A program made the position numbers and the translations under genes. From Spirochaetae bacterium HGW-Spirochaetae-3 (GTDB lineage Bacteria; Spirochaetota; Spirochaetia; Treponematales; UBA12059): a DNA stretch of 64,000 nt. Positions 26,912-50,546 of the stretch are shown here, piece after piece. The notes under the pieces were generated by a model. It saw only the letters and a program-made list of their open reading frames with translations, had not been told where the DNA came from and ran no database searches. Numbering within the stretch: the first letter of the stretch is position 1; each line of letters starts with the position of its first letter. Location: NCBI GenBank assembly GCA_002839315.1, contig PGXV01000010.1:1-64000 (forward strand). The letters are read 5' to 3'.

Positions 26912-27223
26912 GTGGCTACAGAAAACGATATAGAAGACGGAATTCTCGTAGATGAGGATACCGAGACGAGAGAACCGGACGAATACCGGGTTATACTCCT
27001 TAATGATGACTATACGACTATGGAATTCGTCGTGGCGGTCATAATGTCGGTATTCCACAAGGACCTATTCGAGGCGACGCGCGTCATGTTGGACGTGCAC
27101 AGGAAGGGTCGAGGGGTCGTAGGCGTATACACCTACGATATAGCGGCCACGAAGATCAATAAGGTGCATTCCATGGCGAGGGAGAACGGATTCCCGCTAA
27201 AATGCATCATGGAGAAGGCTTAA
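26912..27223 (+). CDS. clpS: ATP-dependent Clp protease adaptor ClpS
   Basis: A 103-residue adaptor that binds destabilising N-terminal residues and hands substrates to ClpA. The substrate pocket is visible as LLNDD (29-33) with VHRKGRG (62-68), and the acidic N-terminal tail (about 1-22) is the ClpA-inserting segment. It starts with GTG, preceded by AAGG. Six bases separate it from clpA, and aat follows, so adaptor, unfoldase and tagging enzyme are together. Confidence 0.96.
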   Translation: MATENDIEDGILVDEDTETREPDEYRVILLNDDYTTMEFVVAVIMSVFHKDLFEATRVMLDVHRKGRGVVGVYTYDIAATKINKVHSMARENGFPLKCIMEKA

Positions 27224-27229
27224 CACGAT

Positions 27230-29698
27230 ATGAAGGTCAACCAGCAGGTTCAAGCGATATTCAACGCCGCATACAACGAGGCCAAGCTCAGGGGGCACGA
27301 ATACCTGACGCCCGAGCACATCCTGTACGCCTCTTTGTCGTTCGAGCAGGTTCGCTCCATCCTGGAGGCCTGTGATGCGGACATCGAGCACATCAAAGTA
27401 GGCATGGAAGCCTATTTCGAGCAGAAGATCCCTGCCGTCAAGGATCAGGAACCGATTCAGACGGCCGGGTTCCAGAGCGTCATCGAACGCGCCGTCCTTC
27501 AATCCCAGGGATCGGGTAAGTCCGAGGTGGGCATCCCGGAGATCCTCGTGTCGTTGTTCGACGAAGAGCGAAATTATTCCGCCTACTACATGCGCAAGGC
27601 CGGCGTCAACCGCTTGCACCTACTCGAGGTGATATCCCACGGCCTCGACGTCGACCTGAGCCAGGGCGGCGACGCCGAGATCGGATCGATAGACGAACCT
27701 TCCGCCGGAGGCCCGTTCTCGGCTCCCGACGAAGAAGATGAGGACGAGCCGGGTTCTCGGCAGAAGCCCCGTTCCACCATAAAGGCGGGCGCGCTGGAGA
27801 AGTTCACCACGGACCTGAACAAAGCGGCGCGTGAAGGCAAGCTTGAACCCGTGATAGGCCGCGAAGCGGAAATAGAGCGGACCGTGCAGGTGCTGTGCCG
27901 CCGCCTCAAGAACAACCCGATACACGTCGGCGACGCCGGCGTCGGCAAGACCGCGATAACAGAGGGCCTCGCCCAGCGTATCGTCGCGGGCAAGGTGCCG
28001 CCGAAGCTCCGAGACTATACCGTCTACTCCCTGGACATGGGTTCCATCATCGCCGGAACCAAATTCCGCGGCGACTTCGAGGAACGCATAAAGCGCGTCG
28101 TCGACGAGCTCCTCAAGAAGGAGAAAGCCATCCTGTTTATCGACGAGATCCATACCATCGTCGGCGCCGGGGCCGTCTCCGGAGGCTCGATGGACGCGTC
28201 CAACCTCCTCAAGCCGGCGCTAACGAGCGGCAGGCTACGGTGCATCGGTTCGACGACCTATGACGAGTACAACAAGTTCTTCGATAAGGATCGGGCGCTG
28301 TCACGGCGTTTCCAGAAGATAGACATCGTCGAGCCGTCGGTCGCCGAGGCGATAGAGATACTCAGGGGGCTCAAGTCGAAGTACGAGGAATACCACGACG
28401 TGGTCTATTCCGACGAGGCGATAGAATTGGCCGCGAAGCTATCGGCTCAGTTCATCACCGAGCGCCGATTACCCGACAAGGCCATAGACGTTATCGACGA
28501 GGCCGGCGCCTGGGCTCGCATCCGAGCCTACAAGGCGGAGGAAGCGGCCCCCGGCGTCGCCGCCGCGCCCGCCCAAGAGGCGTCGACCGATACGGCTGAC
28601 GCTACGGGAAAATCGACCGCCGCTTCGGAGACGCCCGTCGTCGCCGAGATGCCCGTCATCACCGAGACGAACGGCTCTACTGAGACGAACGGCTCTACCG
28701 AGACGAAAACCCTGGCCATCGGCAGGAGCGAGATAGAGATAGTCGTCGCCAAGATTGCCCGTATCCCTGAGAAAAGCGTCACCCAAGGCGAGCGCGACAG
28801 GCTGGCGACCATCGAGGCCGACCTCAAGGCCAGCGTATTCGGCCAGGACGCGGCCGTAGAGACGGTCGCCAAGGCCGTGAAGCGAGGCCGCGCGGGCTTC
28901 CGGGCAGCGGATAAGCCGGTCGCCAATTTCCTGTTCGTCGGCCCGACCGGCGTCGGCAAGACGGAACTGGCGCGAAGGCTCGCCGACACGCTCGGCGTGG
29001 CGCTGCACCGCTTCGACATGAGCGAATACCAGGAGAAGCATACGGTCAGCCGGCTCATAGGCTCGCCGCCCGGTTACGTGGGCTACGAGGAAGGCGGACT
29101 ACTCACCGACGCGATACGCAAGACGCCTCACGCGGTGGTCCTCCTCGACGAGATAGAAAAGGCCCATCCGGACGTCTACAACATCCTCCTTTCGATCATG
29201 GACTACGCGACACTGACCGACAACCAGGGCCGCAAGGCCGACTTCCGCAACGTCGTGCTCATCATGACGAGCAACGCCGGGGCCCGCGACATAGGCAAGC
29301 CGATGATAGGCTTCGGCGAGCGCGCCTTCACCGAGGCGGCCATAGACGACGCGGTGCAGAAGGCCTTTACGCCCGAGTTCCGCAACCGCCTGGACGCGGT
29401 CGTACGCTTCGGGCGCCTACCCCAGGATGTCATAGAGCGTATCGTCCTCAAGGCCCTGGACGATTTCCGCGTCCAGCTCGCGGAAAAGAAGGTGACGCTC
29501 GATACGACCGACGCCTGCGTGAGGAAGCTGGCGGAGCTAGGCTACTCGGACGAATTCGGCGCCCGCAACGTCGGCCGAGTCGTCGAGGACAGGATAAAGA
29601 CGTGGTTCGTCGACGAGGTGCTCTTCGGCAGGCTCAAGGACGGCGGCGCGGCGAAGGCCGACGTCAAGGACGGCGAGATCGTCATAGACATAGCGTAG
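27230..29698 (+). CDS. clpA: ATP-dependent Clp protease ATP-binding subunit ClpA
   Basis: An 822-residue double AAA+ unfoldase. It has an N-domain (about 1-145), the first AAA module with Walker [10 protein letters not shown] (about 234-242), the second with [10 protein letters not shown] (about 570-579), and the ClpP-docking IGF loop in KPMIGFGER near 695. It feeds N-degron substrates to ClpP, which is not in the window. Between the two modules lies a low-complexity Ala/Glu/Thr stretch (about 440-500) containing a six-residue tandem repeat (ETNGST) encoded by an 18-base duplication (28664-28699). That insertion replaces the compact linker of other ClpA proteins. Confidence 0.95.
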
Positions 29699-29712: not shown

Positions 29713-30507
29713 ATGCTTCGTACGATCCGCCGACGGGTTTCCCGTTCCGACCCGCGGTTCCCCTGGCTCGGAGAGGACGATCGCTTCGACTTCCCTCCCG
29801 TCGGGAGCGCCGCCGAGGACGGAGTGCTGTGCACCGGCGGCAACCTGTCGCCCGGCATGCTCCTCTCGGCTTACCGCCAGGGCGTGTTCCCGTGGTTCAA
29901 CGATGAGGACCCAATAGTCTGGTGGAGTCCGGACCCTCGCTTCGTGCTCGTACCGTCCGAGTTGCACGTTTCCGCGACGATGCGGAAGATACTGAAGAAG
30001 CGCCGTTTCGAGCTCAGCCTCGACCGGGCCTTCGGCGAGGTTATACGCGCCTGCTCGTCGACGCCCAGGCCGGGACAGCGAGGCACGTGGATAACGGGCG
30101 ACATGGTGGAAGCCTACGAGCGCATGCACGCCCTCGGCTACGCGCACTCGGTGGAAGCGTGGCTGGACGGGCGGCTCGCAGGCGGCCTGTACGGCCTGTC
30201 CCTGGGTTCGGCGTTCTTCGGAGAATCGATGTTCAGCCTTGAGCCGGACGCTTCGAAGGCGGCGTTCATACCCTTCGTATGGGCGATCTCCGAGGCCGGT
30301 TTCACGGTGGTCGACAGCCAAGTGCGGACCGCCCACGTGCAGGCTATGGGAGGCGCGTCGGTCACGCGCGAAGCGTACCTCGAGCTACTAGCCACCGCCA
30401 TCGAGTCGCCTACGCTGAAGGGCGACTGGTCGGCCCTTTTCCCCCGTTTTCCCGATTCCGCGCCGTACAAGAGCCTATGCGAGGGGCGGCCTTCCGGAGT
30501 ATCCTGA
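29713..30507 (+). CDS. aat: Leucyl/phenylalanyl-tRNA--protein transferase
   Basis: A 264-residue enzyme that adds Leu or Phe to proteins with N-terminal Lys or Arg, creating N-degrons for ClpS/ClpA. Family motifs are GVFPWF (about 58-63), WWSPDPR (about 70-76), HSVEAW and GGLYGLSLGSAFFGESMFS. It starts at ATG 29713 after GGGGAG, 14 bases after clpA. The family is usually 200-250 residues; the slight excess is in the N-terminal basic segment. The operon clpS-clpA-aat holds the whole bacterial N-degron branch apart from ClpP. Confidence 0.96.
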   Translation: MLRTIRRRVSRSDPRFPWLGEDDRFDFPPVGSAAEDGVLCTGGNLSPGMLLSAYRQGVFPWFNDEDPIVWWSPDPRFVLVPSELHVSATMRKILKKRRFELSLDRAFGEVIRACSSTPRPGQRGTWITGDMVEAYERMHALGYAHSVEAWLDGRLAGGLYGLSLGSAFFGESMFSLEPDASKAAFIPFVWAISEAGFTVVDSQVRTAHVQAMGGASVTREAYLELLATAIESPTLKGDWSALFPRFPDSAPYKSLCEGRPSGVS

Positions 30508-30516
30508 CTCTCAGAC

Positions 30517-32322
30517 ATGAGAATCCTCTGCATACAGTTACCCAAGCAAGATACCTCCGGCGACGGAGCCCGAGAGAACGTCCCGTTAACCGCGTCCAGG
30601 ATGATGGCCTATGCCGAATCGTCGAGCGCGCTCACGCGCGACGACTGGGCCTTCATCGATCGGAACGTAGCCGATCACGGCGGCGACGCGGCTATAGCCG
30701 CGGCCGCGATGGCCGATGAACCCGAGCTCATACTCTTCTCCCTCTTCGACTACAACCTGGAACGGAGCCTTTGGCTCGCGAGGCGGCTCAGGGCGGTGAT
30801 GCCCGCTACTCATTTCGCCGCCTTCGGCCCGGAGATCGCCCAGGGCATGCCTATATTCAAGGCGCAGACCTTCGACGCGCTCATTGAGGGCGAACCCGAG
30901 ACGCCTTTCCTGGAGTTGCTCTCCGACCTCTCCGCGAGATCCCTCAAGCCGCGCTACGTCGCTTCCGCCCCGGTCGATCCCGCTATCCTCCCGGACCCCT
31001 ACCTCTCGGGCGCGTTGCCGATGATCCCGGGAAAGCCCGTGCTCATAGAGAGCGCCCGCGGGTCGCCTTCGACCCCGGCCTTCTCCTCCCGCTACGCCCC
31101 CGGCCCCAGGTATTTCCAGCGCGACGTCGCGCCGCGCGTACTCAGGCTCGCGTCGGATCGCGGCGCCGACGAGGCGCGCTTCGTCGACGCCGCGCTCGAC
31201 CGGCGCCCCGATTTCAAGGGCTTCGTGAAGTCGCTCGCGGCGGCCAACGAGTCGGGCGTGGCTCTTGTAGCCCGATTCGATCCATCCGTCGTAGACGACG
31301 AGGCGGTGAAGCTGCTCGCCGACGCGGCCTTCGTCGCGGTGCAGGCGGACCTCGGCAGCGTCAACGCCAAGGCTCTCGAGGCGGTCGGCATGAGCCTGGA
31401 CAGGGACGGGCTGGAACGCGGCTCGCGCCTGCTATGGACCCAGGGCATCATCGTCAAGCCCGACGTGTACCTGGGCCTGCCCCGGGACGGATACGATTCG
31501 ACTATCGACACGTTCGATTTCCTCGGTATGATCGGCATGGGACAGGACGCCGAGCTTCGCCCCATGCCCGTGTCGCCGGGTTCCGCGATACGTGCGGACT
31601 CCGCCGCGTTCGGCGTCAAGGAGTACCTCGAGCGCCCGCCTTACTGGGTCGTGGAGACGGACTGGATGGACGAGGACGACCTGTTAGACGCCATCGCAGA
31701 CTTCGAGGAAAGCTTCGACGTCGCCTGGGGCGCTCCGGTCGCCCCCGACTTCACGCCGTCTCGCGGAGGCTTCGTGTCCTTCGCGGACCTTCGCGCCGCG
31801 GGAAGCCTCGACGCGCTGCTCGTCGCCCCCGAGAGACTAAGCTCGTCGGTAACGCTGTTGCTCGACGCCGACGACCCTGAACGCGTAGCCAGGGTCGTGA
31901 GGGCCGCCAAGGACCTGAGAAAAGAAAATCCGTACTGCCTATGGCAGATCGCGCTGCTTTCGGACGCCGGCATCCCGCCCGCGGCGATGGTAGAAAGGCT
32001 ATCGGACGCCTTCTCGATGCCCGAGCATTACTTCGAGCTGTCGAGGCTCTACGCGCTCGATCCCCAGCCCGATTTCCAGGTACGCATCTTCTTCGCCACC
32101 GCGTCGGAGGCGCTGGCTCTGGTAGCGATGCGCGACAGGCAGGACCTGGAGACGCTGTTCGCGCTCGGCGACGCGCTACCCGGCGCGCGGCTACTGGAAT
32201 CGATGCCATTCCTGGCCTTCGATCGTGAAGCCGCGCCGTTCGAGCTGCTGTACGACGTTATGAGCGCCTATCGCGACTACCCCGACCTGCTGGTCGAGGC
32301 GCCGCGATCCCTGTTCAGATAG
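30517..32322 (+). CDS. B12-binding/radical-SAM-like protein that has lost its cluster cysteines
   Basis: A 601-residue protein. Residues 1-130 have the shape of a cobalamin-binding domain (MRILCIQLPK, LILFSLFDYN, FAAFGPEIA). Residues 175-340 align with a radical-SAM barrel, but the canonical RGCPxxCxFC reads RGSPSTPAFS (181-190). All three cluster cysteines, at positions 183, 187 and 190, are Ser, Pro and Ser. LGLPRDG and the surrounding barrel segments are retained, as is a C-terminal domain of ~200 residues. The frame is intact throughout, which argues for a selected, non-radical function. It starts nine bases after aat and is probably in the same transcript. The function is unknown. Confidence 0.7.
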   Translation: MRILCIQLPKQDTSGDGARENVPLTASRMMAYAESSSALTRDDWAFIDRNVADHGGDAAIAAAAMADEPELILFSLFDYNLERSLWLARRLRAVMPATHFAAFGPEIAQGMPIFKAQTFDALIEGEPETPFLELLSDLSARSLKPRYVASAPVDPAILPDPYLSGALPMIPGKPVLIESARGSPSTPAFSSRYAPGPRYFQRDVAPRVLRLASDRGADEARFVDAALDRRPDFKGFVKSLAAANESGVALVARFDPSVVDDEAVKLLADAAFVAVQADLGSVNAKALEAVGMSLDRDGLERGSRLLWTQGIIVKPDVYLGLPRDGYDSTIDTFDFLGMIGMGQDAELRPMPVSPGSAIRADSAAFGVKEYLERPPYWVVETDWMDEDDLLDAIADFEESFDVAWGAPVAPDFTPSRGGFVSFADLRAAGSLDALLVAPERLSSSVTLLLDADDPERVARVVRAAKDLRKENPYCLWQIALLSDAGIPPAAMVERLSDAFSMPEHYFELSRLYALDPQPDFQVRIFFATASEALALVAMRDRQDLETLFALGDALPGARLLESMPFLAFDREAAPFELLYDVMSAYRDYPDLLVEAPRSLFR

Positions 32323-32326
32323 ACCC

Positions 32327-33310
32327 TCAGTACGACGCCGCCAGGTCGACGCGATGCTCCGCGTCGCCCGTCCGTATCCAGCGCTCGATATTGGCGACGG
32401 TTTGGCTCACGTTGAGCTCCACGGCCTCGAACGTCGAACCGGCCACGTGCGGCGACAGGATGACGTTGGGCAGCGTATGGATCGGGAATCGGGACGGGGC
32501 GCCGGTGACCGCCCCGTGCGGCGGATACACGTACCAGACGTCCAGGCCGGCTCCCGCTATGGTCCCGCCTGTCAGCGCGGCGTAGAGCGCGGCCTCGTCT
32601 ACGACCTCGCCTCGGCCCACGTTTACGAGATAGGCCCCGCGCATCGCTTCCAGCTCGGCGGCGCCGACGAGCCCTCGGGTCGCGTCGGTCAGCGGCAGCG
32701 CGACGAAGACGATATCGGCGCCGGCGACCGCGGCGCGCAGGTCGGTCGTCACCTCGTCGAAATACGCCGGTTTCGGGGCGTCGGCCCTGCGGCGGTACCC
32801 GACGACGGGACAGTCGAAGGCCTTGAGCAACCGCGCTAGCTTCTCCCCGATCGCTCCGGTACCTAATATGGCGCAGCGTTTCCGGAAGATCGAATGCCAG
32901 AAGTCTTCCTGCCCCTTGTCGACCCAGAACCCGTGCCATTTCTCGGCGCGGAGGTCGTTATGGTACTCGACGACGCGCCCGAACCCTGCGAGCGCCAGCG
33001 CGAGCGCCCTTTCGGCTACGCTCTCGGCGTTGCCGTGGCAGTTGAATACCGATATGTCGCGGCTCAGAAGCAGGGACGCAGGCAGGTGATTGACCCCGAC
33101 GAAGGGGACGAACACAGCCTTGAGGCACGACGCCTTCTCGAAATACGAGGCGTCTACACGATTGGCCACGACCGCGTCGAGCCCGGAGAAAGCCTCAAGG
33201 CTCGCCTCGACGCCGCGTATCGCCTCCAGGTCGTCTCCGAGGCTGCGTTCGAGCCCGTCTACGGCCGCCGTCCACATTGTATTCATAGGAACGCAGAATC
33301 CTACTCGCAC
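32327..33310 (-). CDS. D-isomer-specific 2-hydroxyacid dehydrogenase family protein
   Basis: A 327-residue NAD(P)-dependent dehydrogenase. The Rossmann motif GTGAIG is near residues 149-154. The catalytic Arg is in VNVGRGEVVDE, the acidic residue in the LDVW segment and the catalytic His in LSPHVAGST. Such enzymes reduce 2-keto acids or oxidise D-2-hydroxyacids such as phosphoglycerate, glyoxylate or lactate; the exact substrate cannot be read. The GTG start at 33310 is preceded by CGGAGG. It converges on the radical-SAM-like gene with four bases between stops. Confidence 0.9.
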   Translation of the reverse strand: MRVGFCVPMNTMWTAAVDGLERSLGDDLEAIRGVEASLEAFSGLDAVVANRVDASYFEKASCLKAVFVPFVGVNHLPASLLLSRDISVFNCHGNAESVAERALALALAGFGRVVEYHNDLRAEKWHGFWVDKGQEDFWHSIFRKRCAILGTGAIGEKLARLLKAFDCPVVGYRRRADAPKPAYFDEVTTDLRAAVAGADIVFVALPLTDATRGLVGAAELEAMRGAYLVNVGRGEVVDEAALYAALTGGTIAGAGLDVWYVYPPHGAVTGAPSRFPIHTLPNVILSPHVAGSTFEAVELNVSQTVANIERWIRTGDAEHRVDLAASY

Positions 33311-33439: not shown

Positions 33440-33480
33440 TCCTGGCGACTAGATCGTTTTTTCCCCGGAAGGAATACATC

Positions 33481-36285
33481 GTGAACAAGAAGCGAACGCT
33501 GTCGATAGCGGCCTGCGCGCTGATCCTTGGATCCTGCGTATCGGCTCCCGACAAGAGCGGAACCCCGACCGCGACCGCGGCGGCTACCGCCTCCCAGGCC
33601 GAACCGAGTATCGCCGAACTAATAGAGAGAGGGGACGCCGCCGGGCTACAGGCGCTGTTCAAGGGTCGCGAAAAGGCGAGCGAGGCGGGCCCCGACGGCC
33701 TCTACCCGCTCCATTCGGCCGTGCTGAAGGGGTCGAGCGAGATGGTCGGGATACTGCTGGCTATGGGCGCGGTTCCCGATACCGTAGATCCCGACGGGAA
33801 GACGCCGCTCCGGTACGCGGTCGATAGGCGCGACGAAGAATCGGCCAAGGCCCTCGTTCGCAGGGGAGCGTCGCTATTCATCGCAGACTCGGCCGGCGTA
33901 AGCCCGCTGGACGCCGCGATCGCCAAGGGATTCGTCGCGCCGCTCGTAGACAAGTCTTCGGTATCGACCAAGGGCCCGAAAGGCGAGACGCCGTTACACG
34001 TCGCCGTGGACAGGCTGTCGCTCGACGCCGTCAAGGTCATGCTGGCTCTCGATCCCGACCTGGCGATACGCGACGCCTCCGGCAGGACGACGCTCGACGC
34101 GGCGTTCCTCCACCCGGCCAGCCAGGATAGCGCCGCGATCGCCGAGCTCCTCGTCGCGCGCAACGCTCCGAGCTCTATAGACGACTTCGCCTACTTCGTA
34201 CGCGCCGTCAGGGACACGAACTACTCCCGGGCCCGCTTCGCCGACGGGGCCACCGTGCTCCATGAGGCGGTCCGGTACGACCACCGAGGGTACCTGCAGT
34301 TCTTCCTCGACCGCGGCGTACCCGTGGACGCGAAGAACGCGTCCGGAGCGACGCCGTTGCACGACGCCATCAGGCTCGGCCGGCTCGAATCCGCCAAGCT
34401 CTTGCTGGCCAAGGGAGCGGATCCCAACGCCCGCGACGGATCGGGCAACACGCCGATGCACCTCGCGTTGCCGACGGCCGGGGCTCAGGCGGCCATGGAT
34501 CTGCTTCTCTCGTCCGGCGCGGATCCTTCGATCAAGGACAAGGCGGGAAACACCGCCCTGCACGTCGCCGTATCGCTTGGCTTCGCCCCGGCGACCATCG
34601 ACGCGCTCATAGCGAAGGGAGCGCCCGTCGACGCTACCAACGCCGACGGCGATACGGCGCTCGCGACGGCGATGCGCCGCCGTAACGCCGCGATAGTATC
34701 GACGCTCGCCGGGAAAGGCGCCGGCATGTTCGTCAAGAACCTGAAGGGCGAGACGCCGTTGTCCATAGCCCTGAAGGACGGCCCCGAGTCCACGAGGCCC
34801 CTGATCGCCTCCTCGGCCAAGGACGCCCGCGACGACTCGGGCGATTCTCCGTACCATCATGCCGTCCGCCTGCGCGCGACAGCCGCCACCATCGCCGTGC
34901 TAAAGGAACTCGGCCTCGACGCGTCGGCCCGCAACAACGAAGGCGACACGGCGCTCCATCTGGCAGTCCGCGCCAACGCGGCGCCCCAGGGCGAGGCGCT
35001 GCTCAACGCCGGCGCCGATCCGTTCTCGATCAACGCCGCCGAGGCGACGCCCATGTCCCTAGCGCTGTCCGCCGCCGGAGGCCCCCTCGCCTGGTTCTTC
35101 TCTCCCGCGGTCCTCGCTTCCAAGGACTCCGGCGGCAACGGTCCGCTGCATTACGCCGCGATGGCCGGATTAGCCGACGGTTGCGCCTTCCTCGCGTCCA
35201 AGGGGATCCCTGTCGACTCGAGGAACGCTGACGGGCAGACGCCGATGATGCTCGCGCTCCGGAAGGATTCGACCGGAACGGTAAACGTCCTCCTGTCGCT
35301 CGGCGCTGACGCACGCGCCCGCGACTCGTCCGGCTCCACGGCCCTGCACCTGGCCGTCTACTGGCACGCCTCGGAATGCCTGCGCCTTCTCGCGCGTTCC
35401 GCCGGCGACCTCGATCCGCGCGATTATACCGGCAAGACGCCGCTCCGCGACGCCGTCGACAAGGCCGACGCGGCCGCTACGGCCTTCCTCCTCGAGCGCG
35501 GCGCCGACGCCCTGGCCCGGGATAATTCCGGAGAGACGCCGCTCCACGCCGCCGCGCGCCAGGTAGACGACCGCTACGCGACGGCCCTCGCGTCCAAGGC
35601 GCGGCGCATAGACGCACGGGACGATTCGGGCGCGACGCCCCTCCTGGAGGCGGTCTACGCCGAGAACGCCAAGACGGCCAGGGCGCTCGCGTCGCTCGGC
35701 GCATCTATCCACGCGCGCGACTCGTCGGGCGAGAGCCCTCTCAGCTACGCGCTCAAGAAGGGCGGCCCGGTACTCAAGTCGCTCCTCGACGATAAGACCG
35801 CGCGAAGTTCCGACGCGGACGGTCGCTCCGTCGTAAGGGTAATACTGGAGGCCAAGCCGTCCGTCGAATTCCTCGATATGGCCTTCGCGGCCGGCGCGTC
35901 GCCCGACGACCGGGACGCGTTCGGCCGGGCCCCCCTCCACGTCGCCGTGGCCAACGGCTACGCGGATATAGCCGCCCGACTGGTCTCGGCAGGCGCGGAC
36001 AGATTCTCCAGGGACGCCACCGGAGCGACGCCCGTCCTCCTCGCGATGTCGCGGGACGAGCGGATGCTCAAGGCCCTATTCGGTACCGCCCCGAACGCCG
36101 CCGACTACCTCGGCGAGACCGCCCTCCACTACGCCTCAGCCTCCGGCCTCGAAAAAGCGGCCCAATCCCTGCTCGCGATGGGAGCGGACCCGACCCTACG
36201 CAACGCCGCCGGTGAAACCCCGTCCGACGTCGCCAGGCGCCGCGGCTACGAGACCCTAGCCGCGCTGCTCTCGCCAGGCAAATAG
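33481..36285 (+). CDS. Large ankyrin-repeat lipoprotein
   Basis: A 934-residue exported protein. Starting at GTG 33481 (AAGGA upstream), the signal peptide MNKKRTLSIAACALILGSC ends in a lipobox (LGSC), so it is probably a lipoprotein. From about residue 55 to the end it is built of roughly two dozen ankyrin repeats with the pattern G-x-TPLHxA and L-x-GAD. Ankyrin repeats form a solenoid for protein binding. Placement outside the cytoplasm suggests an envelope scaffold or host/partner interaction. Codon use matches the neighbours. An upstream in-frame ATG (33406) would bury the signal peptide. A strong terminator follows. Confidence 0.9.
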   Translation: MNKKRTLSIAACALILGSCVSAPDKSGTPTATAAATASQAEPSIAELIERGDAAGLQALFKGREKASEAGPDGLYPLHSAVLKGSSEMVGILLAMGAVPDTVDPDGKTPLRYAVDRRDEESAKALVRRGASLFIADSAGVSPLDAAIAKGFVAPLVDKSSVSTKGPKGETPLHVAVDRLSLDAVKVMLALDPDLAIRDASGRTTLDAAFLHPASQDSAAIAELLVARNAPSSIDDFAYFVRAVRDTNYSRARFADGATVLHEAVRYDHRGYLQFFLDRGVPVDAKNASGATPLHDAIRLGRLESAKLLLAKGADPNARDGSGNTPMHLALPTAGAQAAMDLLLSSGADPSIKDKAGNTALHVAVSLGFAPATIDALIAKGAPVDATNADGDTALATAMRRRNAAIVSTLAGKGAGMFVKNLKGETPLSIALKDGPESTRPLIASSAKDARDDSGDSPYHHAVRLRATAATIAVLKELGLDASARNNEGDTALHLAVRANAAPQGEALLNAGADPFSINAAEATPMSLALSAAGGPLAWFFSPAVLASKDSGGNGPLHYAAMAGLADGCAFLASKGIPVDSRNADGQTPMMLALRKDSTGTVNVLLSLGADARARDSSGSTALHLAVYWHASECLRLLARSAGDLDPRDYTGKTPLRDAVDKADAAATAFLLERGADALARDNSGETPLHAAARQVDDRYATALASKARRIDARDDSGATPLLEAVYAENAKTARALASLGASIHARDSSGESPLSYALKKGGPVLKSLLDDKTARSSDADGRSVVRVILEAKPSVEFLDMAFAAGASPDDRDAFGRAPLHVAVANGYADIAARLVSAGADRFSRDATGATPVLLAMSRDERMLKALFGTAPNAADYLGETALHYASASGLEKAAQSLLAMGADPTLRNAAGETPSDVARRRGYETLAALLSPGK

Positions 36286-48099: not shown

Positions 48100-49233
48100 A
48101 TGAACGCTATCGCCATCGGAGAACAATTAAAAACGGCTCGAGAAACCCGCGGCCTCACCATAGACTACGTCGCCGACGAGACGAACATAGCCAAGCGCTA
48201 TATCGCCGCGATGGAAAACGAAGACTTCTCTGTATTCCCCGGCGAACCGTACATCGTGGGATTCCTCCGGAACTACGCCGAGTACCTGGGGCTCGAATCC
48301 AACGCCATCATCCAGGCGTTCCGCGGCATCCGCATCCAGGAGCAGCCCGTACCTATCCAGGAACTGCTTCAACCCAAGCGCGTCCGGATATGGCCCTTCG
48401 TCGCCGCAGGGGCCGTCGTCGTCCTCGGCGTGGGCGGAGCCCTGGCCATGAGGGCCTTCTCCCCGAAGAACGCCGCCGACGCCCCGGCCCTTACCAAGTC
48501 CGAGCCGATGCAGCACACGCTCGATTCAGCCTCGTTCGAGAAGCGCCTGTACGAAGGCGACACGCTCATCGTCCCGTATGCGGGCGATACCTATAAGCTC
48601 AGGATAGCGAAGATAGACGATCGCGTAGCGATAGAGACGCCCGTCGGCGTCTCCCGTTTCATGCTCGGCGAAGAGGGCTCCATCGACCTGGACAAGGACA
48701 ATCAGCCCGAGCTCGTCGCCTTCATCGTCGACTTCCAGAAGAACGACGCGGCCCGCGGAGCGGTCATACGCTTCAGCGCCGCGGGCTCCCTCGCCGTATC
48801 CATGCCGGGCATGGAATCCGCGGCCGCGGCCGCGGAAGCGCAGGAGGCGCCCGCGCCCGCCGCTACGGAGGACCCCGCCGTTCCCGAGCGCCCGTCCAGC
48901 CAGGAGTCAATCGTATTCTCCGGCAAGCGCAGCCCCTATCCGTTCGTGATAAACGTGACGTTCCGCAACTACGCCATGTTCCGCCACGAGATAGACAGGA
49001 AGGACCGCGAGGAGCGCTACTATCATAAGGGCGATCAGATCAGCGTCACCGCCAACAACTCGGCCAAGCTATGGACGAGCAACGCGGCCGCGTGCAAGCT
49101 GACGATCCAGGCTTCCGGAGGCCAGAGCGCCGACGTCGAGCTGGGCCTACCCGGCGAGGTGGCGGTCAAGCAGGTCAGATGGACGCAGAGCGACGACGGC
49201 ACGTGGAGCCTCGGCGTCTACAACGTAAATTGA
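48100..49233 (+). CDS. RodZ-like helix-turn-helix membrane protein
   Basis: A 377-residue protein. The cytoplasmic N-terminal helix-turn-helix (about 6-75) starts IGEQLKTARETRGLTIDYVA, with FPGEPYIVGFLRNYAEYLGL typical of RodZ. A single transmembrane helix lies at about 95-115, followed by a periplasmic part with an Ala/Pro/Glu-rich linker (about 245-270) and a C-terminal DUF4115-like beta domain. RodZ links MreB to the cell wall during elongation. An extra beta-type segment (about 140-235) enlarges the periplasmic region. Its TGA overlaps the rimO TTG. Confidence 0.85.
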   Translation: MNAIAIGEQLKTARETRGLTIDYVADETNIAKRYIAAMENEDFSVFPGEPYIVGFLRNYAEYLGLESNAIIQAFRGIRIQEQPVPIQELLQPKRVRIWPFVAAGAVVVLGVGGALAMRAFSPKNAADAPALTKSEPMQHTLDSASFEKRLYEGDTLIVPYAGDTYKLRIAKIDDRVAIETPVGVSRFMLGEEGSIDLDKDNQPELVAFIVDFQKNDAARGAVIRFSAAGSLAVSMPGMESAAAAAEAQEAPAPAATEDPAVPERPSSQESIVFSGKRSPYPFVINVTFRNYAMFRHEIDRKDREERYYHKGDQISVTANNSAKLWTSNAAACKLTIQASGGQSADVELGLPGEVAVKQVRWTQSDDGTWSLGVYNVN

Positions 49234-50546
49234 AGACATTCTACATAGACAACCACGGTTGCGCCAAGAATCAGGTCGACGCGGAGGAGATGGCCGCCAG
49301 GCTCGTCGCCGACGGCTGGAAGCAATCCGCCTCCATGGCGGATACCGGACTCGTCATCGTCAATACCTGCGGCTTCATCGAGGACGCCAAGAAGGAATCG
49401 CTTGAAGCGGTGATGTCCATAAAGGCGGCCTACCCGGACAAGCGGATCCTCGTCTCCGGCTGCCTCTCCCAGCGCTACGCCGGGGCCCTCGCGAGCGACC
49501 TCGCGGAGGCGGACGGCGTCTTCGGCAACGGAGACCTGTCGCTCGTCGGCGAGGCCGCGGTATCGGCGCTGGAGGGCCGCCGAGGTACGCTGGCGCCCGA
49601 GCGCGTCGCCTACGCGCCGGCGCGCAGGAGCGCGCTGATGGGCTTCCCGCGATCCGCCTACCTGAAGATAGCCGAGGGCTGCAACAATCGCTGCTCGTTC
49701 TGCGCCATACCGATCATACGCGGGGACGTCTCGTCGCGCGATCCGGACGACGTAGCCGCCGAGTTCGCCGAGCTCGTAGCGCGCGGCGCCTACGAGATAT
49801 GCCTTATCGGCCAGGACCTCGGTTCCTACGGCGTCGACAGGTCCGGCGGGCAGCTGTTGCCCGAGCTCCTGTCCGGCCTGTCGTCGATATCCGGCGACTG
49901 GCGCGTCCGCATGCTGTACATACATCCGGACCGGTTCCCTCGGGCCGTGCTGGACGCCTGCGCCCGGGACGAGCGCGTGCTCCCCTACTTCGACCTCCCG
50001 TTCCAGCACGCCTCCGGGCGGGTGCTCCGGGCCATGAACCGGTCGGGCGACGCGGATCGCTACCTCGGGCTCCTTTCCGACATTCGCTCCGCGCTGCCCG
50101 CGGCGACGATACGCTCGACCTTCCTCGTCGGCTTCCCCGGCGAGGAGGACGCCGATTTCTCCGAGCTGAGGCGCTTCCAGGAGGCGGCGAGGCTCGATTG
50201 GCTCGGCGCCTTCGCGTATAGCCGCGAGGAAGACACGCCGGCGTACTCGATGAAGGGCCGCGTACCCAAGCGCGTCGCGTCCGCCCGCAAGAAAGAGATC
50301 GAGGACGCCCAGCGGCCGATCACCGAGAAGGCGCTGGAACGCTTCGTCGGGACGGGCCAGACCGTTCTCGTCGAGGAACGCATCGAAGGCGAGGACCTGG
50401 CGATAGCCCGGGGCTACATGAACGCGCCCGACGTGGACGGAGCCGTCGTCGTAGTCGGAGGCGAACTGGCCGCCGGCGACGTGCTCGAAGTAAGCGTCAA
50501 GGCGGTACGCGGCGTCGACCTCGAGGCGACCCCTCGTGCCCGCTAG
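49230..50546 (+). CDS. rimO: Ribosomal protein uS12 methylthiotransferase RimO
   Basis: A 438-residue radical-SAM enzyme that methylthiolates an Asp of ribosomal protein S12. Domain order is MTTase N-terminal (HGCAKNQVDAE, SGCLSQRY), radical SAM (EGCNNRCSFC near residues 148-157) and a TRAM-like C-terminal domain. HGCAKNxVD distinguishes RimO from MiaB. The start is a TTG overlapping the rodZ stop (TTGA), giving MKTFYIDNHG; longer upstream frames run inside rodZ and lack similarity. It overlaps the helicase gene by 11 bases. Confidence 0.95.
   Translation: MKTFYIDNHGCAKNQVDAEEMAARLVADGWKQSASMADTGLVIVNTCGFIEDAKKESLEAVMSIKAAYPDKRILVSGCLSQRYAGALASDLAEADGVFGNGDLSLVGEAAVSALEGRRGTLAPERVAYAPARRSALMGFPRSAYLKIAEGCNNRCSFCAIPIIRGDVSSRDPDDVAAEFAELVARGAYEICLIGQDLGSYGVDRSGGQLLPELLSGLSSISGDWRVRMLYIHPDRFPRAVLDACARDERVLPYFDLPFQHASGRVLRAMNRSGDADRYLGLLSDIRSALPAATIRSTFLVGFPGEEDADFSELRRFQEAARLDWLGAFAYSREEDTPAYSMKGRVPKRVASARKKEIEDAQRPITEKALERFVGTGQTVLVEERIEGEDLAIARGYMNAPDVDGAVVVVGGELAAGDVLEVSVKAVRGVDLEATPRAR

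Follow-up and report, generated by a model that had tools for sequence, protein, structure and literature searches.

The window analysed here is a 64-kb stretch (64,000 nucleotides) of the genome of Spirochaetae bacterium HGW-Spirochaetae-3. According to our analysis, clpS (26912 to 27223, + strand), which encodes the N-degron adaptor and was named from its sequence and context, is followed by clpA (27230 to 29698, +; Pfam matches AAA_2, AAA_lid_9, ClpB_D2-small, and Clp_N) and by aat (29716 to 30507, +), which encodes a leucyl/phenylalanyl-tRNA protein transferase (Pfam Leu_Phe_trans, E = 4.9e-69). Nine bases separate the end of aat from the start of the gene under study (30517 to 32322, +), an uninterrupted frame of 601 codons, as the preliminary description had read it, encoding a 601-amino-acid protein. 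This protein is here considered a cluster-less radical S-adenosylmethionine (SAM) homologue, and putatively a pseudoenzyme, on the basis of its open frame, its full-length orthologues, and AlphaFold2 modelling with Foldseek and VIA comparisons. Downstream, a D-2-hydroxyacid dehydrogenase gene (32327 to 33310, −; Pfam 2-Hacid_dh_C and synteny) converges on it. Just past the dehydrogenase, positions 33478 to 36285 encode a large ankyrin-repeat protein with 14 Ank_2 stretches. The window also holds a different radical SAM gene at 49071 to 50546, which resembles RimO/MiaB methylthiotransferases and has an intact CxxxCxxC motif (EGCNNRCSFCAIP); its true start probably lies further into the frame.

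The protein begins with an N-terminal B12-binding-like Rossmann domain (residues 1 to 150; 30517 to 30966, +). It is followed by the former cluster loop (residues 176 to 200; 31042 to 31116, +), which contains RGSPSTPAFS (residues 181 to 190; 31057 to 31086, +), by the rest of the barrel (residues 201 to 360; 31117 to 31596, +), which retains the fold without the SAM and active-site residues, and by a C-terminal domain (residues 361 to 601; 31597 to 32319, +) that shows the highest conservation of all parts within the cluster-less family. When searched alone against Pfam, NCBIfam, and PDB sequences, the window protein gave weak matches only: it scored 14.1 bits against Pfam Radical_SAM (PF04055), below the curated cut-off of 29.5, and its residues 16 to 141 weakly matched NCBIfam KedN5, a cobalamin-dependent radical SAM family (E = 5e-4). 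The sequence by itself is therefore hard to assign, and the link to the radical SAM family became clear through the orthologues. An AlphaFold2 model built from an alignment of 44 homologues reached a mean pLDDT of 93.7, the lowest values in the barrel falling on residues 181 to 200, that is, on the former cluster loop. The top matches of this model among solved structures, TokK (Foldseek E = 3.9e-19), CysS (VIA Z 33.5, rmsd 3.0 over 391 residues), and AprD4 (VIA Z 28.8, rmsd 3.1 over 379 residues, covering residues 1 to 403), are all radical SAM proteins of the B12-domain type. The model and these matches place in the protein a (partial) radical SAM TIM barrel, as the preliminary description had anticipated, and, since they span residues 1 to about 400, the N-terminal Rossmann domain as well. 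By descent and predicted fold, the protein is thus a member of the radical SAM superfamily.

Full-length orthologues were identified across most of the window's own family, f1, which consists of uncultured spirochaetes such as HGW-Spirochaetae-7 (45 to 81% identity), and in f4, another family of this order, which includes Rectinema subterraneum (Treponematales, Rectinemataceae; 41 to 47%). A single orthologue was found in a third family, f2 (38%), and one further relative, from another family of the class, keeps CxxxCxxC. In the tree, which comes from a quick search and contains some long branches although the f1 and f4 groups are strongly supported, a branch with an SH-aLRT value of 100 separates the f1 proteins from the rest, and they are sister to the f4 proteins (99); the other Cys-bearing sequences fall outside these two groups. 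The order clpS-clpA-aat-target is common to both families, as is the convergent 2-hydroxyacid dehydrogenase gene downstream, which identifies the f1 and f4 genes as positional orthologues rather than a stray paralogue. Full-length identities of 41 to 47%, the common gene order, and the matching predicted fold also dispose of chance resemblance as an explanation. Besides its cluster-less copy, genome G012 carries elsewhere a second homologue (L034:2846-4861) that is Cys bearing, unlinked, and 32% identical to the window protein.

The preliminary description had matched RGSPSTPAFS position by position to the radical SAM signature RGCPxxCxFC, and alignment with 25 f4 orthologues upholds this, as each of the three cluster cysteines is matched exactly, by S183, P187, and S190, respectively. 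RGCPxxCxYCYYGK or a close variant occurs in 25/25 of these f4 proteins, and the full CxxxCxxC is also present in the f2 orthologue, in the second G012 copy, and in distant paralogues. The window protein, with Ser, Pro, and Ser at these sites, lacks this [4Fe-4S]-binding motif, and none of the aligned f1 orthologues has it in full. The Ser/Pro/Ser replacement is peculiar to the window species: other f1 members carry different residues, the loop is deleted in genus g3, and L008 and L010 each have one cysteine in it. As to whether the three positions are uniformly non-cysteine, which the preliminary description proposed to check, no f1 member has all three cysteines, but genus g9 keeps the first two (RGCPxPC) and is missing only the third. 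Since the replacing residues vary, the f1 loop shows no conserved new motif, and residues 180 to 200 are the most variable segment in f1 (23% mean identity versus 69.5% in the sister family). A replacement cluster site was considered and rejected, as the protein has only two cysteines, at positions 5 and 474; a lone Cys at aligned position 190 in L028 adjoins a 9-residue gap and was deemed an alignment artefact.

Sequencing error was rejected as the cause of the cysteine loss because the 20 f1 genomes that bear an orthologue agree, and a recent loss in a single species was rejected because the tree places the loss on the family stem. Likewise, the case of a recent lineage-specific loss among close Cys-bearing orthologues, which would have weakened the preliminary description, is countered by the support of 100 for the f1 clade. 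Cluster loss is clade-wide in f1 and stepwise, and its family-wide occurrence therefore makes it old. The pattern of replacement suggests that the third cysteine went first, on the f1 stem, and that the other sites eroded afterwards.

The gene is under purifying selection. Maximum likelihood omega values from codon models were 0.035 in the genus, 0.038 in f1, and 0.047 in f4, figures that are rough in absolute terms since synonymous sites are near saturation; fixing omega at 1 was rejected, at a cost of 2dlnL of 2241 in the genus. Because of this saturation we used aat from the same genomes as a control. In f1, the pN/pS of the target was about that of aat for the same genome pairs (e.g., 0.275 versus 0.259), whereas in f4 the ratio of the target's value to that of aat was mostly about 0.4 to 0.7, so that constraint in f1 appears relaxed about two-fold relative to aat, which is not decay. 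Pairwise comparisons within the genus place the most relaxed stretch in the former cluster loop. That the gene is kept by selection rather than decaying, as had been proposed, is therefore sustained by an omega of about 0.04 and an aat-like pN/pS, and omega also excludes a recent pseudogene.

Slow decay, in which a dispensable enzyme leaves an eroding gene with residual selection for folding only, would account for the high variability of the loop, or its deletion, in some genera, for the loss of the gene from a genome of genus g7, and for an in-frame TAG that shortens the frame to 511 amino acids in L014 (genome G022, genus g9). This TAG reflects either an error in sequencing or the beginning of the loss of the gene. 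We consider this already disfavoured reading improbable, since the complete f1 copies other than that of G022 have full-length frames, the gene persists across eight genera, and the C-terminal domain remains constrained, in addition to the omega and pN/pS values given above. Slow loss in some branches is nevertheless possible, in view of the two-fold relaxation and of the g7 genome without the gene.

The preliminary description had also taken the rest of the barrel as intact. This is true of the fold but not of the active site, as only 4/34 of the polar barrel residues conserved in f4 remain conserved in f1 (12%), compared with 7/20 in the N-terminal domain (35%) and 23/56 in the C-terminal part (41%). 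The motifs HxELR, EGLQS, and KTG are among those lost, and the window protein does not retain the SAM and active-site pocket residues of its Cys-bearing sister. In the barrel, f1 and f4 are 38.5% identical, and in the C-terminal domain 46.7%. The comparison of f4 with the outgroups shows the opposite trend (49.4% and 28.8%, respectively), and this reversal indicates that constraint has shifted from the barrel to the C-terminal domain. The retained barrel fold and the strong selection on the gene could also be reconciled with a barrel rebuilt for a reaction that does not use an iron-sulfur cluster. A new site would, however, be expected to leave a set of newly conserved polar residues, and the barrel has only three polar residues whose conservation is seen in f1 but not in f4 (D269, E300, and D344, the last being a mere Asp in place of the sister's Glu). 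A rebuilt active site in the barrel is thus unlikely, and we regard new catalysis as just as improbable as slow decay.

Erosion also extends to the B12-binding domain. Tyr79 of the window protein aligns with TokK Trp76, which sits beneath the cobalt (PMC13331322); position 79 is aromatic or His in most of f1, and N80 is kept in all f1 members but one, but Y77 is lost. In most f1 members, the GGP and GEGE loops have lost glycines that do not vary in the sister family, namely the second of AGGP and the last of GEGE, and the substituting residues can be as bulky as Phe, Trp, or Leu; the window protein has AFGP and GEPE, and genus g8 keeps both loops. Because the loop glycines are mostly replaced, often by bulky residues, cobalamin binding by the f1 proteins is doubtful, least so in g8. 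These data bear on the proposal of the preliminary description that the protein is a corrinoid or nucleotide sensor, with the B12-like domain binding the ligand and signalling through the C-terminal domain. The confidently modelled Rossmann domain, the residues kept at positions 79 and 80, and the presence of other B12-binding proteins in the window genome would be compatible with such a function. However, apart from g8, the loss of Y77 and of most loop glycines, together with a barrel pocket that has no new conserved polar set, speaks against it, and we consider the sensor unlikely.

Where an f1 or f4 locus has sufficient flanking sequence, linkage to clpS-clpA-aat is almost always observed. 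It predates the cluster loss, since f4, with an intact motif, has the same order. That both families conserve the order suggests a common task, but for the N-degron connection hinted at in the preliminary description the evidence is only positional: in g3 the gene lies away from clpA-aat while still adjoining the dehydrogenase, and in one g7 genome clpA-aat occurs but the gene does not. The f2 orthologue lies elsewhere, unlinked to clpA-aat, and in most f3 and f5 genomes aat is present but an orthologue is absent. We therefore treat the N-degron link as a lead, not as proof, and a partnership with Aat, ClpA, or ClpS may be envisaged. A literature search on ClpS or Aat with radical SAM proteins returned nothing relevant, and no paper tying such a radical SAM enzyme to N-degron genes was found. 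In f4 loci L051 to L059 and L076 to L086, a Cys-bearing B12-binding radical SAM gene directly follows clpS-clpA-aat. Some f1 and f4 genomes have an additional gene between clpA and aat, which encodes a PAP2-superfamily membrane protein (L051:4106-5119, likewise L052, L054, L064, L066, and L076; the Pfam match is from L051 only).

Descent from a presumptive enzyme, missing catalytic residues, and purifying selection are among the marks of a pseudoenzyme, and these three are found here. Since the active site is eroded while the fold and the selection persist, the protein most likely carries out no radical chemistry. There is good support for the view that, across f1, a B12-type radical SAM protein was converted long ago and in steps into a pseudoenzyme that is still maintained. 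The common ancestor of f1 and f4 carried a cobalamin-domain radical SAM enzyme in an operon-like order, clpS-clpA-aat-enzyme. The third cluster cysteine would have been lost on the f1 stem, and the other two, with the SAM and active-site residues, then eroded, apparently several times over, while the fold was kept and purifying selection became concentrated in the C-terminal domain. The resulting, probably non-enzymatic protein may bind the same partner or substrate as the ancestral enzyme. As to present function, it is probable, though by no means assured, that the protein serves as a scaffold or regulator and that it does so by means of surfaces it has inherited from the enzyme; it would be devoid of any catalysis and have a binding role. 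The more specific idea that it is an adaptor or regulator of Aat/ClpAS, and that the sister enzyme is an unrecognised modifier in the same pathway, is tentative, and we assign it a small chance.

The window genome has 26 radical SAM matches above the cut-off, so that the organism has not abandoned radical SAM chemistry. Intact B12-binding and radical SAM proteins in the same genome, and a C-terminal domain that could bind a partner, leave some room for a two-protein system in which the target is the non-catalytic partner of an intact enzyme encoded elsewhere. We think this very unlikely, since no intact homologue adjoins the gene and its nearest relative in the window genome matches only at E = 2e-6. 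A maintained pseudoenzyme thus remains our preferred reading. Maintained radical SAM pseudoenzymes seem little documented, and we found no description of one in the open-access literature. The present case allows an unusually clean comparison: the gene occupies the same position in two sister families, of which one has the cluster motif and the other does not, there are intermediates with two of the three cysteines, and the move of constraint from the barrel to the C-terminal domain can be measured. The case also draws attention to a radical SAM enzyme, as yet uncharacterised, that Rectinema and its relatives encode near clpS-clpA-aat and that is directly testable.

Among known systems, the closest is the f4 orthologue of Rectinema and its relatives, which shares the gene position, the full-length similarity, and the same three domains but, unlike the window protein, has the full CxxxCxxC, the SAM and B12-loop residues, and a strongly conserved barrel; judging from these intact motifs, it is presumably an active enzyme. 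TokK and CysS, which are cobalamin-dependent radical SAM methylases and the best structural matches, share the fold and, in TokK, the aromatic residue at the position of Tyr79, but they have cluster, SAM, and cobalamin and are only 15 to 19% identical. AprD4, a radical SAM 1,2-diol dehydratase, matches over residues 1 to 403 but is an active enzyme with an intact cluster motif. The DUF4080-bearing B12-binding radical SAM proteins have a similar domain order; DUF4080 matches weakly in 6/44 aligned members but not in the window protein, and the DUF4080-bearing copy in the window genome (L035) differs from it in keeping CxxxCxxC.
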